Shown here piece by piece: positions 1,157-9,082 of a stretch of DNA of 39,711 nucleotides; positions within the stretch are counted from its first letter, which is position 1, and each line of letters begins with the position of its first letter. The stretch is from the NCBI GenBank assembly GCA_012519635.1, contig JAAYPV010000099.1, forward strand, positions 1 to 39,711, given 5' to 3'. Both the position numbers and the translations under genes were made by a program. Source of the DNA: Clostridiales bacterium. GTDB taxonomy: Bacteria; Bacillota; Clostridia; Oscillospirales; Ruminococcaceae. The notes under the pieces are model-generated. The model saw nothing but the letters and a program-made list of their open reading frames with translations, was not told where the DNA came from and did no database searches.

Positions 1157-3085
1157 ATGCTTGCAAAGAAAATAGTTGCTGCTGCTTTGGCAGTTGGTAT
1201 GGTATTTTCAGCGTCTACTAGTGTTGTGAGTTTTTCTAATTTAAAAGCATCAGCGGAAGCTGGAAAAACTGGAACACTTTATGGAGACGCAAATTGTGAT
1301 GGGGTAGTGGATGTTTATGACCTTGTTGCTGCAAAAAGAAATATAACAAGTACACTCACAGAACAAGGTAAAATTAATATTGATTTTAATGGTAATGGTG
1401 TTGATTCATCCGATATCCTACAAATTAAAAAGTATCTTTTAGGGGTAGTAGATACGCTTACAGGTCCTCAAAAGGAATATGATGGAGAATACAATATTCC
1501 TGAAATTTCAATTGAGTCAAAGGATATTCCAAATCTTGAATCATTTAAATTTGTTGCAAAGATGGGTGCAGGTATTAACTTAGGTAATACTTTAGATGCT
1601 GTATCTGACAGCGCTCCTGCTGGAGAAGCAAATTTATTCCTAGAAACAGCATGGTGTGGAGTAAAGACTACTAAGGAGATAATTGACAGCATAACTAATC
1701 AGGGGTATAAAACAATCAGAATTCCTGTTTCATGGCATAATCATGTAGATGCAGATTTTAATATTCATGTAGAATGGCTTAACAGAGTCCAAGAAGTAGT
1801 GGATTATGCTATTGATAATAATATGTATGTAATTATTAATATTCATCATGATAATGAGTATGATTATATGTATCCAAGCTATGCTCATTTAGAGAACTCA
1901 AAGAAATATGTAAGTAAGATTTGGTCACAGGTTGCTGAAAGATTTAAAGATTATGATGAACATCTTATCTTTGAGACACTTAATGAACCAAGATTGCAAT
2001 ATACAAGCTTTGAATGGGTTTATTCATCTTCATCAGATGAGTGCAGAGAAGCAGCAGATTGTATAAATCAGTATAATCAGGCAGCACTTGATGCTATTAG
2101 AGCAGCAGGTGGAAATAATGCTAATCGATATGTAATGGTTCCAGCATATGCTGGTAAGGCAGAAGCTGCTATGGCAAATGAGTTTAAGCTTCCTGAGGAT
2201 AGTGCGACAGACAAATTAATTCTTTCTGTTCATGCTTATATTCCATATAATTATGCTATGAATGCTCCAGAAGCACCAGGAAGCACAACTGAATTTACTG
2301 ATGCTGACAAAGCTGAAATAGATAATGTTATGGAAACATTATATGTGATGTTTATTTCAAAGAACATTCCTGTTGTTATAGGTGAATATGGTGCAAGAAA
2401 CAAAAATGTGGACGGAAAAGATTATACTCAGGGAAGAGTTGATTACGCTGCAAATTATGTTGCATCAGCAAGAGCAAGAGGAATAAGCTGTGTATGGTGG
2501 GATAACAATGCATTTGAGAGCAGATCAGGCGAAGCATTTGGACTTCTTCACAGAGCTTCAAATACATGGACATTTGACGCTATTGCATATGCAACAGTAA
2601 AATATGGTGACAGCTCAAAGACAAAGTTTGTAACTCCTTGGTATGATCCAGATTCATCTACAGGTGATGAAGCAACAATCCTTCCTGATGGAACAATCAT
2701 GTTCCCAATAGAGATTGGTGAGAAGGTAATTCTTGGTGTTGAACTTAATAGTGGTGTAGCACAATTGGGTGGAGCACTCACATTTAGCGTATCACTTTAT
2801 GGAACAAATTACTGGGTAGCATATCAGTGGTCAGCAACATCATCAGGAAATATTGAAATTGATATGAGAGTTCCTAATATGGCGATTAATTCTAATATTC
2901 CAGATGATGGAACAGGTTCAAATGCTGTAACAGATGAAACTGTGTTATCAGAAATAGGTAAACTTGTTATGAAGGGTAATTCAACCTCAATTCAATACTG
3001 GTGGGCATGTGACACAGGTTGGAACAATTTAACTGAACCATTTGATCAATACGGAAGAATTGTATCAGCTTCAGCTGGTAAATAA
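1157..3085 (+). CDS. Secreted GH5 family glycoside hydrolase (endoglucanase-like) with N-terminal dockerin and C-terminal putative carbohydrate-binding domain
   Basis: Signal peptide; two dockerin repeats GDANCDGVVDVYDLVAAKR and DFNGNGVDSSDILQIKKYLLG; GH5 motifs INLGNTLDA, IRIPVSW, INIHHD, FETLNEPR, VIGEYGA. Confidence 0.93.
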   Translation: MLAKKIVAAALAVGMVFSASTSVVSFSNLKASAEAGKTGTLYGDANCDGVVDVYDLVAAKRNITSTLTEQGKINIDFNGNGVDSSDILQIKKYLLGVVDTLTGPQKEYDGEYNIPEISIESKDIPNLESFKFVAKMGAGINLGNTLDAVSDSAPAGEANLFLETAWCGVKTTKEIIDSITNQGYKTIRIPVSWHNHVDADFNIHVEWLNRVQEVVDYAIDNNMYVIINIHHDNEYDYMYPSYAHLENSKKYVSKIWSQVAERFKDYDEHLIFETLNEPRLQYTSFEWVYSSSSDECREAADCINQYNQAALDAIRAAGGNNANRYVMVPAYAGKAEAAMANEFKLPEDSATDKLILSVHAYIPYNYAMNAPEAPGSTTEFTDADKAEIDNVMETLYVMFISKNIPVVIGEYGARNKNVDGKDYTQGRVDYAANYVASARARGISCVWWDNNAFESRSGEAFGLLHRASNTWTFDAIAYATVKYGDSSKTKFVTPWYDPDSSTGDEATILPDGTIMFPIEIGEKVILGVELNSGVAQLGGALTFSVSLYGTNYWVAYQWSATSSGNIEIDMRVPNMAINSNIPDDGTGSNAVTDETVLSEIGKLVMKGNSTSIQYWWACDTGWNNLTEPFDQYGRIVSASAGK

Positions 3086-3193: not shown

Positions 3194-3227
3194 AAAAAGG
3201 AGTGAATAGTAAAATTCACTCCTTTTT
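3194..3227. terminator. Bidirectional terminator hairpin, downstream of the minus-strand operon
   Basis: AAAAAGGAGTGAAT / ATTCACTCCTTTTT, perfect 14-bp stem. Confidence 0.75.
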
Positions 3228-3245: not shown

Positions 3246-4151
3246 TTATACTTCAACAGTAACGATAAAACCATCTATATTATTTCCGGAAATAGTATAA
3301 TTTTTATTAGGTTCTATATGAATTTCTGTGGTATCATTAGCAGTATTTTGAGGAACATAATAAACCTCATATTTTTTTTCACCTACAGTAATTTTTAAAC
3401 GACCTGTTATAAAATCATAACCCTTTACTAACTCAATATATTCCTCAAGGCAAAGGTTATTTTCTTTCATATAAACTGCATGAGGAACACCTACATAACG
3501 GAAATGTGAGTAGCTCGCATCATGCCCTGTTATATCGCTTTTTCCTTCAGGATATCTTTCAATAAATCCATATTTATGGCAGTTTTCAGTTACCCATGCA
3601 TATTTATCAGTCGGTGTATATTGAGCAGATGAATTTGCATCTATACGGATACCAATATTAAAGCTCAGACCAGTTATTATTTCAGAAGTTACATCTGTAA
3701 GACTGTTTCTATAAGCATCAATAATTCTAATATCCTCACTATTATTAACGGAATAGTAGCCATCCATAAATTGATTCAAAGCAATTAATGCATCTGTATT
3801 TAAGGAAACCTCATTATCAACCACATAGTAATGGCGTTCTGCAGGATAATCCTTTATAACCGTTGCAGTAGGTGCAGCAGGTTTGGTATATGGATTTGCA
3901 CTATTAACTAAAATAAGGTTACCAGTTTTAATATCAGAATTATTTTTAATAACTTTTTCGACAGTAGCAACACTACTACTTGAATTTGTCTCTGATGTAA
4001 TAGAAGGTGAGGAACTAGGTGTTTTTTTGTTTTTATCCTTTTTACCTGAAGCAGCTTTATTAAGAGCTGTTGCAATAAGTATGATAATAAGTATAAATAT
4101 AGCTGAAACAGCTATAATACGGTCATATCTTACTTTGTATTTTCTACTCAT
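3246..4151 (-). CDS. Membrane-anchored M15B/VanY-like D-Ala-D-Ala carboxypeptidase homolog, catalytic residues apparently lost
   Basis: N-terminal TM; TENCHKYGFIERYPEGKSDITG...SHFRYVGVPHAVYMKENNLCLEEY is VanY-like; SxHxxGxAxD and ExxH motifs degenerate. Confidence 0.75.
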   Translation of the reverse strand: MSRKYKVRYDRIIAVSAIFILIIILIATALNKAASGKKDKNKKTPSSSPSITSETNSSSSVATVEKVIKNNSDIKTGNLILVNSANPYTKPAAPTATVIKDYPAERHYYVVDNEVSLNTDALIALNQFMDGYYSVNNSEDIRIIDAYRNSLTDVTSEIITGLSFNIGIRIDANSSAQYTPTDKYAWVTENCHKYGFIERYPEGKSDITGHDASYSHFRYVGVPHAVYMKENNLCLEEYIELVKGYDFITGRLKITVGEKKYEVYYVPQNTANDTTEIHIEPNKNYTISGNNIDGFIVTVEV

Positions 4152-4199
4152 TTTGATTTAACAGTCCTTTCTAATAATAATTATGTCTTCGGTTATATT

Positions 4200-4919
4200 T
4201 CACAGGTGAGTTGTCAATGCTGACAATACATCCTGAATTGATTTACTTTCAGCATAAAGAAAGTTAACAGGCTCATTTATATATTCTAGGTAATGAGCAT
4301 CAGAATTTGTGATAATATTACAATTTGATAAATAACTATGTTGTTCAACCAGCTTGTCTTTTTGGTTTATATCTTTAATTTCCACACATTTAAACTTACT
4401 GTCCGGAGGGATAAAACCTAAATTTGACAGAAGGCTATTAGAAGACTTGTCGATATGGGCTGGAATCATAATGCCATCATATTGTCTAATAGCATCATAC
4501 AATCCATCAAAGCTCAAATCAACAGCATTAATAAGCAAATTAGATACTTTTCCTATAATATTATCGTCTTCATCGCAGATTTGTTGTTTACCGAAAATGT
4601 CTTCATTATTTGGCGTAGGTAAAATTATTGAGGAAACAAACTCGTCAAACAGCATAGCCCTATTTAAATCTGGAAAAAGGCATACAACATGAACTTCTTC
4701 AGATGTACATATTTCCATACCTGGAATAGCAAGCACTCCATATGCCTCTGCGAGCTTCATTACAGCAGGACAATTTTTACATGAGTTATGGTCAGTGATA
4801 GCAATCACATCAAGTTCTTTTAAAGCAGCCATGCCAACAATATTTGATGGAAGCATATCATCATCGCCACATGGTGAAAGGCATGAATGGATGTGTAAAT
4901 CATATGAAAGCTTAAGCAT
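4200..4919 (-). CDS. PHP-domain metal-dependent phosphoesterase
   Basis: YDLHIHSCLSPCGDDDMLPSNIVGMAALKELDVIAITDHNS...PAHIDK...NSDAHYL PHP motifs. Confidence 0.9.
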   Translation of the reverse strand: MLKLSYDLHIHSCLSPCGDDDMLPSNIVGMAALKELDVIAITDHNSCKNCPAVMKLAEAYGVLAIPGMEICTSEEVHVVCLFPDLNRAMLFDEFVSSIILPTPNNEDIFGKQQICDEDDNIIGKVSNLLINAVDLSFDGLYDAIRQYDGIMIPAHIDKSSNSLLSNLGFIPPDSKFKCVEIKDINQKDKLVEQHSYLSNCNIITNSDAHYLEYINEPVNFLYAESKSIQDVLSALTTHL

Positions 4920-5259
4920 TGATCAATTCATGTACCAACAAAGCAGTTTCGAAGATAGGCATACTGCTTTGCAAAACGGTAATATCCTGTTGCTTAGCTT
5001 TTTCCATTGCAGTTAAATCAAGCGTAACACCATCAGCAAGAATTATGCAGGCTACATCTACAAGTACAGCAACTGCCAGAGTATTCACATTCCCCATAAC
5101 TGTAATCCATGCAGAATTAGCAGGTGCTTTGCTCATTGCAATGCTTAATAAATCGCAACAAAACGGTTTATTTATACTAATATCAAGATTGTTTCCAGGA
5201 TTGATTACAGTAAAATTTGTATTTTTGATCAAATCATTAACAGTCATAACAAACCCCAT
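4912..5259 (-). CDS. DRTGG-domain protein (second copy)
   Basis: Similar to the 7004-7354 product (SAWITVMGNVNTLAVAVLVDVACIILADGVTLDLTAMEKAKQQDITVLQSSMPIFETALLVHELI); stop overlaps start of PHP gene. Confidence 0.7.
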   Translation of the reverse strand: MGFVMTVNDLIKNTNFTVINPGNNLDISINKPFCCDLLSIAMSKAPANSAWITVMGNVNTLAVAVLVDVACIILADGVTLDLTAMEKAKQQDITVLQSSMPIFETALLVHELINA

Positions 5260-5262
5260 AAT

Positions 5263-6534
5263 TTATTTATTATTTAATTCTTTAGATTTCTGTTTAATAT
5301 ATTTTCTTAACACTTCAATGCAGTCATGCTCAGAAGCTACACCACGAACGATATCCTCAGCAAGGGACTTACAGGTAGGAGCACCACATGAGCCACAATC
5401 AAGACCAGGAAATTTATCACACAATTCATTTATTCGTGACATAGCAGCAATACTATCCATAAAGTTATCAGCAAGCTTAAAAACAGGATTATACTCAATT
5501 GGTTTTTGAAGAAAAGCCTCATCAATATAATCTGTATTAAGATGATTACAAGCAACAGGTAGGTATTTACATAAATGCTTTAGTTTTGCCTGTGCAACAT
5601 ATGGATTTTCGACAGTCAGTACACCACCAACGCAGCCACCACTACATGCATTTAGCTCAATAAACTCAAGTCTGTTAATTTTCTCATCTTCCAAGTCCTC
5701 AAGTACTCGTATAACATTTTCTATCCCATCAGCAGCAAGATAGCTATCAGTAAGCATTCCACCTGATTCACCACCACTATTTCCCCAGCTTACACCTATT
5801 CGTCCGGAAGAAGATAATTCTTCGGGCATATCGACAACCTGCTTCATAAGTGGTAATAAAACAGGGTAGACCTCCTTAATTGCAATAACAGCATCAACAT
5901 CGGATTTATCAATACCAATAGGTTTTTTACAAGCTGTGACCTTAGCGGGACATGGTGATATAAATATAACGCCTATTTTGTCAGATGGGAGTCCTGTATT
6001 TTCAATAGCCTTTTTTCTTGCGAGAGAAGCAGCTATATCCACTGGAGCATTAAAGGGTAGTAAATGTTCAATGAGGTTTGGAAAACGAATACTTACAAGG
6101 CGAACAATTGTTGGGCAAGCGGTACTGATAAATGGCCTTTTTTTCTTATTATCAGCAACATATCGGCGCGACATTTCAGACACCATTTCAGCAGCACTGC
6201 TTACCTCATAAACATCGTCAAACCCCATGAGCTTCAATGCATTCAGAACAATATTTATATCATCAAGATTATTAAATTGAGCATATAGAGAAGGAGCAGG
6301 CAGTGCTACCTTATATTCATAATTTTTTAAAACATCTATAGGGTCATATGTAGCAAGTTTTGCGTGGTGTGGGCATACACGAATACATTCTCCACAGTCA
6401 ATACAAAATTCAGAGATAATAGTTGCTTTACCATTTCTTACACGGATGGCCTGTGTAGGACATCGTTTTATGCAGTTTATACAACCTTTACACAAGTCAC
6501 TATTAAGGTGTACAGAATGTTCAAAATCTGTCAT
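5263..6534 (-). CDS. Sensory-type [FeFe] hydrogenase (HydS-like): 2x[4Fe-4S] ferredoxin domain, H-cluster domain, C-terminal 4-Cys Fe-S domain
   Basis: CKGCINCIKRCP, CIDCGECIRVCP; H-cluster motifs TACP, SPCPAK, ELNACSGGCVGG; C-terminal CGSCGAPTCKSLAEDIVRG. Confidence 0.88.
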   Translation of the reverse strand: MTDFEHSVHLNSDLCKGCINCIKRCPTQAIRVRNGKATIISEFCIDCGECIRVCPHHAKLATYDPIDVLKNYEYKVALPAPSLYAQFNNLDDINIVLNALKLMGFDDVYEVSSAAEMVSEMSRRYVADNKKKRPFISTACPTIVRLVSIRFPNLIEHLLPFNAPVDIAASLARKKAIENTGLPSDKIGVIFISPCPAKVTACKKPIGIDKSDVDAVIAIKEVYPVLLPLMKQVVDMPEELSSSGRIGVSWGNSGGESGGMLTDSYLAADGIENVIRVLEDLEDEKINRLEFIELNACSGGCVGGVLTVENPYVAQAKLKHLCKYLPVACNHLNTDYIDEAFLQKPIEYNPVFKLADNFMDSIAAMSRINELCDKFPGLDCGSCGAPTCKSLAEDIVRGVASEHDCIEVLRKYIKQKSKELNNK

Positions 6535-6581
6535 AAACGAAAATCCTCCTTTATAATAAATTAGGCAAAACTATATACTGT

Positions 6582-7007
6582 TTATTTAATATAAACCTTC
6601 ATGGTAACAGTTGTGCCGACACCTACGGTCGATTTAATTGACATTTCATCAGAATATTTTTGCATATTAGGTAATCCCATTCCAGCCCCGAATCCTAAAG
6701 AGCGAATGTTATCAGGTGCAGTTGAGAAACCAGCAGTCATAGCTTGTTCAATATCTTTAATACCGGGACCTATATCGTCAAGAATAATTACTATTTCGGT
6801 AGGAGAGATTTCGACAGTTATTTCTCCTCCGTTTGCATGAATAACCATATTTATCTCCCCTTCATACATTGCAATAGCAACTTTTCTAATTACTTCGGGG
6901 GGGAGATTCATTTTTTTTAATTTACTTTTCACATCACTAGAGGCTTCACCAGCACGGGTGAAGTCTTCGGAAGACACTGAATATTTAAGAGTTATCGTGT
7001 TGCTCAA
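6582..7007 (-). CDS. HATPase_c anti-sigma-factor/serine-kinase-like ATP-binding protein
   Basis: INMVIHANGG N-box, IILDDIGPGIKD G1 box, SLGFGAGMGLPNM G2; TTG start (7007) with GGAGG upstream, overlapping stop of upstream gene. Confidence 0.82.
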   Translation of the reverse strand: MSNTITLKYSVSSEDFTRAGEASSDVKSKLKKMNLPPEVIRKVAIAMYEGEINMVIHANGGEITVEISPTEIVIILDDIGPGIKDIEQAMTAGFSTAPDNIRSLGFGAGMGLPNMQKYSDEMSIKSTVGVGTTVTMKVYIK

Positions 7008-7354
7008 TTCATAGCACCTCCGTGCAAGCCATTTGAATAGAGCAAGCCACAAGCAGTAAACATTCTGTGTTTAGTAGAAAGTAAAGGTATATTTCTTTCA
7101 ACAGCAAGCTTAATCATATTTTCATCGGGAAGTTTTCCACGAACAAAAACGATGCAAACCATATCCATCATTTCAGCGGTACGAATTACTTGAGGATTGC
7201 AAAGTCCAGTTAGAAGAACGGACTGGTCTTTAACAAAGGCGAGTACATCACTCATCATATCGGAACCGCAGGCGGTATGTAATTCTTTATCGGTAGAATC
7301 TTCGCAACATAGAATTTCAGCATCAAGCAACTTAGCAATGTCCTTGACAGTCAT
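7004..7354 (-). CDS. DRTGG-domain protein (first copy)
   Basis: MTVKDIAKLLDAEILCCED...LTGLCNPQVIRTAEMMDMVCIVFVRGKLPDENMIKLAVERNIPLLSTKHRMFTACGLLYSNGL; GGAGG upstream of ATG 7354; ORF track start 7402 is too far upstream. Confidence 0.75.
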   Translation of the reverse strand: MTVKDIAKLLDAEILCCEDSTDKELHTACGSDMMSDVLAFVKDQSVLLTGLCNPQVIRTAEMMDMVCIVFVRGKLPDENMIKLAVERNIPLLSTKHRMFTACGLLYSNGLHGGAMN

Positions 7355-7426
7355 ATGTAAATTACCTCCAAAATAAAAATAAAAAAACAAAAAATTAAAC
7401 AATCGAAAAACAACCTATTAGTGATA

Positions 7427-7456
7427 ATTATAACATATTATATCGTATTATGTAAA
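7427..7456 (-). promoter_or_regulatory. sigma-A-type promoter for DRTGG-HATPase-HydS operon (TTTACA-N18-TATAAT)
   Basis: Read on minus strand upstream of ATG 7354. Confidence 0.45.
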
Positions 7457-7620: not shown

Positions 7621-8508
7621 ATGGATACGACTAAATCATTTTTGGTTGCAGGAGGAGATTTAAGACAGGTATATTTAGCAGAAAAGCTTGCCACGAAGGA
7701 TAATATAGTATATGCAATCGGTTTTGATGAAAATATATCTTTCTCTGATGGTATTTGTCAGTTGGAAAACACAATTATGCTTACTGATAGGGTGGATTAT
7801 ATTGTATTGCCGTTGCCTGTATCAACTGATGGTGTAATGGTTAATGCTCCGTTTTGCAGACAATGTATTCCGCTTAATTCATTGACAACAGTTCTGAAGG
7901 ATGGCGGTATTGTTTTCGGTGGTAAATTTAATAATGCTTCCAGAAAGATATTTGCTAATAGCAGGATTGATACGATAGATTATTTTGATAGGGAAGAGTT
8001 AAATGTTTTAAATGCAGTTCCTACAGCTGAGGGAGCAGTACAGATAGCAATGGAGGAGCTTGCAACAACAATATTTGGTCAAAAAATTTTAATTACAGGT
8101 TTTGGAAGAATTACAAAGGTTCTTGTTAAAATACTTATAGGCTTAGGTGCAGATGTAACGATTGCAGCACGAAAATATTCGGATATTTCTTGGGCAGAAA
8201 TATATGGCTGTAAGGGGATACATATATCTCAGCTTAAGGAAAACATATCCGAGTTCACTGTAATTTTCAATACAGTGCCTGCACTGATTTTTGACGAGAA
8301 GATTTTAAAGCTTGTAAATAAAGATGTTTTGATAATTGATTTGGCATCAAAACCAGGAGGGGTTGATTTTGAAACAGCTGGTGTATTAGGTGTTAAGGTT
8401 GTGTGGGCGCTTTCACTTCCAGGTAAGGTTGCTCCGATAAGCTCTGGAGAAATAATAGCGTATACAATCCTCAACATTCTTAACGAAAGGGGAATGGCTG
8501 ATGATTGA
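7621..8508 (+). CDS. dpaA: Dipicolinate synthase subunit A
   Basis: FLVAGGDLRQVYLAEKLA, VLPLPVS, ILITGFGRITKVLVKILIGLGADVTIAAR, IDLASKPGGVDF, LPGKVAPISSGEIIAYTI; followed by dpaB. Confidence 0.92.
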   Translation: MDTTKSFLVAGGDLRQVYLAEKLATKDNIVYAIGFDENISFSDGICQLENTIMLTDRVDYIVLPLPVSTDGVMVNAPFCRQCIPLNSLTTVLKDGGIVFGGKFNNASRKIFANSRIDTIDYFDREELNVLNAVPTAEGAVQIAMEELATTIFGQKILITGFGRITKVLVKILIGLGADVTIAARKYSDISWAEIYGCKGIHISQLKENISEFTVIFNTVPALIFDEKILKLVNKDVLIIDLASKPGGVDFETAGVLGVKVVWALSLPGKVAPISSGEIIAYTILNILNERGMADD

Positions 8509-9082
8509 TTTTAAAGGAGTAAAAATTGCATTTGTCATGACGGGTTCGTTTTGTACATTTGCTAAGGCTTTTAAACAGATAAGGATATTAAAGGATTTAG
8601 GAGCAGAATTAGTACCAGTGATGTCATTTAATGCGTGTAGTTTGGATACAAGGTTTGGCAGTGCTGAAGAGAATATAGCAATTTTGGAGGAGATTTGTGA
8701 AAGAAAGGTTATTACAACTATTGAGGGTGCAGAGCCTATTGGTCCTAAGAAGATGGCTGATATCATGGTCGTTGCACCATGTACAGGAAACACGCTTGCG
8801 AAGCTAGCGTTAAGTATAACGGACACACCAGCTACAATGGCAGTTAAGTCGCATATAAGAAATGCAAGACCTGTTGTACTGGCGTTGGCAACAAATGATG
8901 CTTTGGCAGGTTCTTGTAAAAATTTAGGTTCACTTATGAATATTAAGAATTATTATTTTGTCCCATTAGCACAAGATGATTATGTGAATAAGCCAACATC
9001 ACTTGTATGTGATTTTGATCTTCTTCCACTTGCAACAGCAAGTGCTTTACAGGGCAATCAGCTTCAACCAATCTTAAACTGA
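8501..9082 (+). CDS. dpaB: Dipicolinate synthase subunit B (flavoprotein)
   Basis: FKGVKIAFVMTGSFCTFAKAF..., VVAPCTGNTLAKLALSITDTPATMAVKSHIRNARPVVLALATNDAL. Confidence 0.93.
   Translation: MIDFKGVKIAFVMTGSFCTFAKAFKQIRILKDLGAELVPVMSFNACSLDTRFGSAEENIAILEEICERKVITTIEGAEPIGPKKMADIMVVAPCTGNTLAKLALSITDTPATMAVKSHIRNARPVVLALATNDALAGSCKNLGSLMNIKNYYFVPLAQDDYVNKPTSLVCDFDLLPLATASALQGNQLQPILN

Follow-up and report, generated by a model that had tools for sequence, protein, structure and literature searches.

The DNA analyzed here is a 39,711-nt contig (JAAYPV010000099.1, assembly GCA_012519635.1) of a Clostridiales bacterium, and the whole of it is called the window below. Its open reading frames (ORFs) were assessed and the window proteins were searched against Pfam. 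Six tightly spaced ORFs at 3246-7402 on the minus strand, one of which encodes the hydrogenase-like protein HydS, are the subject of this work. In their order on that strand, they encode DRT1, a stand-alone DRTGG-domain protein of 116 amino acids (7004-7354; Pfam DRTGG, 2e-9); HAT, a SpoIIAB-like GHKL ATPase of 141 amino acids (6582-7007; Pfam HATPase_c_2, 2e-10); HydS, a [FeFe]-hydrogenase of group D (M2e) with a putative sensory role and 423 amino acids (5263-6534; Fe_hyd_lg_C, 2e-32, and FeS, 9e-11); DRT2, a second stand-alone DRTGG-like protein of 111 amino acids (4912-5247; recognized by family profile and synteny); a PHP phosphoesterase of 239 amino acids (4200-4919; Pfam PHP, 2e-7); and a VanY-like membrane-anchored protein (3246-4151; Pfam VanY, 8e-9). 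The start of HAT is a TTG that overlaps the DRT1 stop, and PHP and DRT2 overlap by 8 bases. Because the genes overlap there, translation is probably coupled at these two junctions. The DRT2 start was placed at a conserved MTV, with the ATG at 5259 as an alternative.

A candidate sigma-70-type promoter lies ahead of DRT1 at 7427-7456 on the minus strand (TTTACA-18-TATAAT, with TG ahead of the -10 hexamer). It is the best-scoring of 28 sites in the region, but that number of sites is about what chance would give and, hence, the promoter stands as a consensus match only (11/12). At 3194-3227, also on the minus strand, is a predicted intrinsic terminator that could work in both directions on paper, with a predicted folding energy of -18.3 kcal/mol (z -6.9). 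A preliminary description of this DNA had reported six tightly packed minus-strand genes with a promoter and a terminator, and the ORF calls, the promoter match, and the hairpin all agree with it.

Conservation of the gene neighborhood was followed in two samples. The first contained 108 HydS loci, of which 28 came from relatives, each of a different genus, and 80 were named loci retrieved by means of the HydS alignment. Each gene was identified there with its own profile hidden Markov model. DRT1 was found beside HydS in 106/106 testable loci, HAT in 107/107, DRT2 in 92/97, and PHP in 90/94. The second, separate sample covered the phylum with 150 genomes. Group D HydS was present in 50 of these genomes, and HAT and DRT1 were each present in 54. 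All 50 genomes with HydS carried HAT and 49 of them carried DRT1; among the 100 genomes without HydS, HAT was found in four and DRT1 in five. The co-occurrence with HydS is highly significant (Fisher p < 1e-31), in a test that ignores kinship and was applied to genomes from dozens of families. Genomes G002 and G186 seemed at first to have lost parts of the set, but at least some of this apparent loss is due to the module being split. DRT1, HAT, HydS, DRT2, and PHP are a conserved module. It is widespread but poorly described, and the window carries an ordinary copy of it. Single-frame fusions of DRT1-HAT, HydS-DRT2 (locus L205), and PHP-HAT2, where HAT2 is a second HAT-type gene, were also seen, each in few genomes and with sequencing errors possible. 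They argue for physical contact between the partners. At another locus (L065, uncultured Ruminococcus), PHP is immediately followed by a further HAT paralogue, about 2.4 kb past the start of HydS.

The comparison of neighbors had been suggested in the preliminary description, with a lack of conservation beside HydS as grounds for refutation. It did not refute the proposal, as five of the six genes were retained and only the sixth was removed. The VanY-like gene occurs beside HydS in 2/91 loci, both from this genus. VanY enzymes hold their zinc with the His of SxHxxG and an Asp, followed by a further His. In the window protein and its congener, SEIITGLSFN replaces SxHxxGxAxD and, thus, the first zinc-ligand His and the Asp are lost; the second His is kept in these two and lost in L064. 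The protein is probably catalytically dead, judging by these residues. Three more VanY-related genes exist elsewhere in the same genome. Together, the rarity, the lost ligands, and the further relatives rule the gene out as a member of the module, and it is better seen as an unrelated neighbor. It follows PHP after a gap of 48 bases, and since no terminator between the two was found in the region, it may be co-transcribed with the module by read-through.

HydS consists of two N-terminal [4Fe-4S] motifs, the H-domain, and a C-terminal Cx2Cx4Cx16C motif (C380, C383, C388, C405). No PAS domain was detected in it with Pfam, and the protein stops after the C-terminal iron-sulfur cluster. All four H-cluster cysteines, C140 (L1), C195 (L2), and C297 and C301 (L3), are invariant in 136 HydS sequences. 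The proton-transfer residue C299 is replaced by Ala (A139 in the window protein; Ala in 124/136 family sequences), M353 by Ser (S193 in the window; Ser or Thr in 134/136), and M497 by Asn in the window protein. Loss of C299 and the change of M353 to Ser or Thr have been published as signs of a slow, putatively sensory enzyme of group D (PMC8163306). In a tree, HydS sequences form a clade of 30 (support 100/99) that is sister to the PAS-bearing group C, with group A apart. The tree does not contain TamHydS, the group D enzyme of Thermoanaerobacter mathranii, itself, and its placement with HydS rests on its published features. HydS almost certainly belongs to group D (M2e) and not to the PAS-bearing group C, and it probably senses H2 gas rather than producing it, as far as residue changes can indicate. 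The sensory role given to it in the preliminary description fits both these changes and the published work on TamHydS and TmHydS. Another possible explanation is that HydS is one more low-rate catalytic hydrogenase, whose neighbors were carried along by operon history. It has retained every H-cluster ligand, and the H2 chemistry of TamHydS is reversible (PMC8163306), which would suit such an enzyme. However, C299 and both methionines are lost, and the presence of HAT in every HydS genome of the second sample is far above what hitch-hiking would produce. This explanation is, therefore, very improbable.

The module has a recurrent neighbor of its own. It adjoins or sits inside the NuoE(HydC)-HAT2-Fd2-HydB-HydA operon of the electron-bifurcating hydrogenase, HydABC, the principal H2-producing enzyme of fermenting bacteria, in 84/93 informative loci, with 72 divergent, five downstream in the same direction, five between NuoE and HAT2, and two arranged otherwise. 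The commonest form across the phylum is a ten-gene operon, DRT1-HAT-HydS-DRT2-PHP-NuoE-HAT2-Fd2-HydB-HydA, found in at least 20 of 40 distant loci. The preliminary description had stated that neither the catalytic HydA nor a maturase is present here. This is true of the window but not of the genome, which encodes HydA, HydB, and NuoE on contig C89 and HydG on contig C103. Since the hydrogenase operon is on another contig and adjoins the module in relatives, its absence from the window is best explained by relocation. Instead of the sensor without a catalytic partner that had been described, the module has a natural partner, the bifurcating HydABC encoded elsewhere in the genome. We consider it very likely that the two are functionally linked. 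A complete module with HydABC was also seen on a contig labelled Anaerolineaceae (Chloroflexota; L081); it is close to the Lachnospiraceae versions, which could reflect horizontal transfer or a binning error.

Transcription of the hydrogenase seems to have a regulator already. Rex-type operators (TTGTTAA-N4-TTAACAA, at most two mismatches) were found in 16/68 divergent intergenic regions between module and hydrogenase, for example in L110, L118, L131, and L082. With 60 scrambled palindromes, the mean was 0.8 regions, so the real Rex palindrome occurs at 20 times the control level. In Caldicellulosiruptor, there is experimental evidence that Rex controls the bifurcating hydrogenase (as reported in PMC8579813). 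Ahead of the window module there is no Rex operator (the best site has four mismatches), and the upstream region of the genome's own hydC has a site with three mismatches, which is not significant alone. Because Rex apparently controls hydrogenase transcription in relatives, the module would most naturally act after translation.

The closest solved structure to HAT is SpoIIAB, and its ATP site is intact, with the N-box residues E48 and N52, D77 and G79 of the D-x-G motif, and the G-x-G-x-G motif at G104-G110 all conserved. HAT is, by these motifs, probably a Ser/Thr switch kinase. The GHKL fold is also shared by chaperones, and a different role can be drawn from this, in which the module would be a device to assemble or repair the bifurcating hydrogenase (and Rnf) or to control its quality, with HAT acting like a chaperone, the DRTGG proteins as scaffolds, and HydS as a dummy subunit or a carrier of clusters. 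The nearly constant position of the module beside structural genes of multi-cluster complexes would be expected of such a device, as would the physical complexes implied by the fusions. On the other hand, the closeness of HAT is to switch kinases, the full H-cluster site is kept in HydS, and catalysis by a group D enzyme has been demonstrated in vitro (PMC8163306). HydA is also present in several relatives that have no group D HydS, DRT1, or DRT2. We regard an assembly device as unlikely.

DRT1 scores 37.5 bits against the Pfam DRTGG cut-off of 25.2, and its predicted fold matches a DRTGG structure, 2ioj (TM 0.82). DRT2 reaches 19.1 bits against the same cut-off for the window protein alone, and it is clearly related to DRT1 by profile. 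A D-x-x-S motif is common to the two families and invariant in both (D32 and S35 in DRT1). It lies within residues 31-44 of DRT1, which are the least ordered, lowest-confidence stretch of the predicted fold, a property that would suit a segment for partner binding. We also considered whether DRT1 could be a cysteine-ligated Fe-S protein, as C29, C67, and C102 are conserved in close relatives. This was rejected as a general feature, since across the phylum C67 is kept in 5% and C29 in 59% of sequences. In PHP, the metal ligands H9, H11, D43, H44, E69, H77, H155, D207, and H209 are invariant or nearly so in 133 sequences, and Cys17 is invariant. A tyrosine phosphatase of the CpsB/YwqE type was rejected as a model for PHP because no such structure was recognized among the best fold matches.

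The PHP and DRT1 folds bring in a further possibility, namely a nucleotide second messenger as the output. In this case, PHP would degrade or edit a pAp-like, diadenosine, or oligonucleotide molecule, DRTGG and CBS domains would bind adenylates, and H2 would be tied to an energy signal. The predicted PHP fold is closest to EndoQ, RNase AM, and nucleotide phosphatases, and the nearest structures include a PHP enzyme that was solved with adenosine monophosphate (2yb1). Besides 2ioj, the DRT1 fold resembles the N-domain of HPr kinase and the DRTGG domain of a Clostridium perfringens CBS-pyrophosphatase, which was solved together with CBS domains and has adenylate ligands. In four loci, a CBS pair is fused to HAT itself. 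Nevertheless, the module contains no nucleotide cyclase or synthetase, and a DRTGG domain found in a different kind of protein (L221) lacks the D-x-x-S motif. A nucleotide output of this kind is, thus, possible but improbable.

Variant modules give some indication of how the parts can be exchanged. The four HydS-free genomes of the 150-genome sample that keep HAT also keep DRT1. The CBS pair is fused to the N-terminus of HAT in L177, L178, L186, and L208, and HydS is absent from three of the four. In the 150-genome sample, such a HAT was found in 2/4 of these HydS-free genomes and 1/50 HydS genomes (p = 0.012, small numbers), which fits a swap of one sensor for another. In L177 and L186 (genomes G177 and G099), the module genes directly precede an Rnf operon, suggesting that Rnf may be under the same device there. 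In a third locus, L210 (G096), DRT1-HAT stands without HydS beside genes for Rex, a multiheme cytochrome, and NfnAB-like proteins; Rnf, Rex, and NfnAB at these three loci were named by eye from their sequences. Reduced forms were found as well, in which HAT-DRT2 or DRT2 only is left. L272 (G006) has only HAT-DRT2, divergent from a hydrogenase operon, L273 (G042) has only DRT2, ahead of a hydrogenase operon, and L274 (G057) has DRT2 with no close HAT. Because HydS-free, Rnf-linked, Rex/NfnAB-linked, and reduced versions exist, the module seems to work with ferredoxin/nicotinamide adenine dinucleotide (NAD) enzymes generally, with HydS as the usual but exchangeable input.

We propose that, in the electron-bifurcating [FeFe]-hydrogenase system of clostridia, the module makes up the accessory half, which is probably regulatory. 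Most likely, it is an H2-responsive device for post-translational control of ferredoxin/NAD enzymes. HydS would bind and slowly turn over H2 at its H-cluster and, in this way, report H2 pressure. Its state would pass to HAT and to the DRTGG proteins, of which DRT2 is in frame with HydS and DRT1 with HAT in some genomes. PHP would reset the signal by removing phosphate from a protein or a nucleotide. The enzymes tuned by the output would be coupled to ferredoxin/NAD, namely HydABC in the majority of genomes and Rnf in a small number. Since hydrogenase transcription is apparently under Rex in relatives, this tuning is most likely post-translational. The probability that the module plays this part and works as proposed is about 0.5. 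A regulatory role as such is likely, and the exact kinase/DRTGG/PHP switch drawn here is tentative. A broader version, in which an unnamed phylum-wide device joins a SpoIIAB-like kinase, DRTGG proteins that fill the STAS role through D-x-x-S, and PHP, with interchangeable inputs (group D HydS for H2, a CBS pair for adenylates) and bifurcating and Rnf-type enzymes as targets, is a speculative extension that we think doubtful.

Several observations count against the proposal. HydABC is unlinked to the module in the window itself. Remnants beside HydABC and the Rnf-linked modules indicate that HydS is dispensable and, hence, that H2 is not necessarily the signal everywhere. The activities of HAT and PHP are assumed from their motifs, and the predicted PHP fold comes closest to nucleases and nucleotide phosphatases rather than to protein phosphatases. 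The DRT2 Ser was considered as the residue that HAT phosphorylates and was followed in two genomes that have DRT2 but no close HAT; it is lost in G042 and kept in G057, so that the two point in different directions. Lastly, in electron paramagnetic resonance, the C-terminal cluster of TamHydS was unresponsive to H2 (PMC13104023).

In the window, a dipicolinate synthase-like dpaA and a flavoprotein gene (dpaB-like) lie at 7621-9082, divergent from the module, and were found as neighbors in the congener only. On the other side, a GH5 cellulase that carries a type I dockerin (1157-3085) is convergent on the module terminator.

Land et al. (PMC8163306) raised the question of how a sensory hydrogenase of group D, which lacks a PAS domain, could pass on its signal, and the conserved partners offer a small, concrete gene set for it. 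The host organisms set H2 output in the rumen, the gut, and biofuel fermentations, and the HydS-free, CBS-bearing, and Rnf-linked versions suggest that the device regulates ferredoxin/NAD energy metabolism more widely.

That group D HydS adjoins bifurcating hydrogenases is already published. Carere et al. (2012; PMC3561251) described pairs of M2e and TR(M3) enzymes, in which M2e is near a trimeric bifurcating hydrogenase with a kinase between them, in C. thermocellum (Cthe_0335/0340-0342), Caldicellulosiruptor (Athe_1292/1297-1299, Csac_1857/1862-1864), Thermoanaerobacter (Teth39_1463/1456-1458), and C. phytofermentans (Cphy_3798/3803-3805). The accessible part of that paper does not discuss module genes besides the kinase; judging from the numbering, the spacing of the locus tags fits the ten-gene order. 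The literature searchable here gave no account of the full module, its fusions, the HydS-free and CBS-ATPase versions, or the Rnf-linked copies.

Among characterized proteins, TamHydS (PMC8163306, PMC13104023) shares with the window HydS the domain layout, the loss of C299, the change of M353 to Ser, and the Cx2Cx4Cx16C motif. Its R30, R32, K35, K58, D378, E392, D393, and D403 occur at the same positions in the window protein (initial Met uncounted, register almost gap-free), while R42 and S384 are replaced by Phe and Ala (PMC13104023). The TamHydS locus likewise has an adjoining histidine-kinase-like ATPase and a bifurcating hydrogenase close by, whereas the window copy is unlinked from HydABC. 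In its accessible sections, the TamHydS account names only this ATPase and an AraC regulator and does not describe DRTGG or PHP partners. The group C (M2f) enzymes, TmHydS and the sensory hydrogenase of Ruminococcus albus (PMC10055695, PMC6776011), belong to the sister clade and have a C-terminal FeS cluster and putative H2 sensing in common with HydS. They differ in having a PAS domain, and the R. albus enzyme has a Ser/Thr phosphatase subunit as well; the window HydS has neither. Group C paralogues stand separately in relatives (L061-L063, L115, L132), and in L205 (G171), the group D module is immediately preceded by a group C hydrogenase that shares a long frame with a histidine-kinase-like ATPase domain. 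Finally, HAT has the fold family and ATP-site motifs of the partner-switching kinases SpoIIAB and RsbW. No STAS antagonist or sigma factor was found among the six window genes, and no consistent extra gene within the mapped modules (the rest of the genome was not searched). Compared to the SpoIIAB/RsbW systems, the DRTGG proteins occupy the place of these partners.

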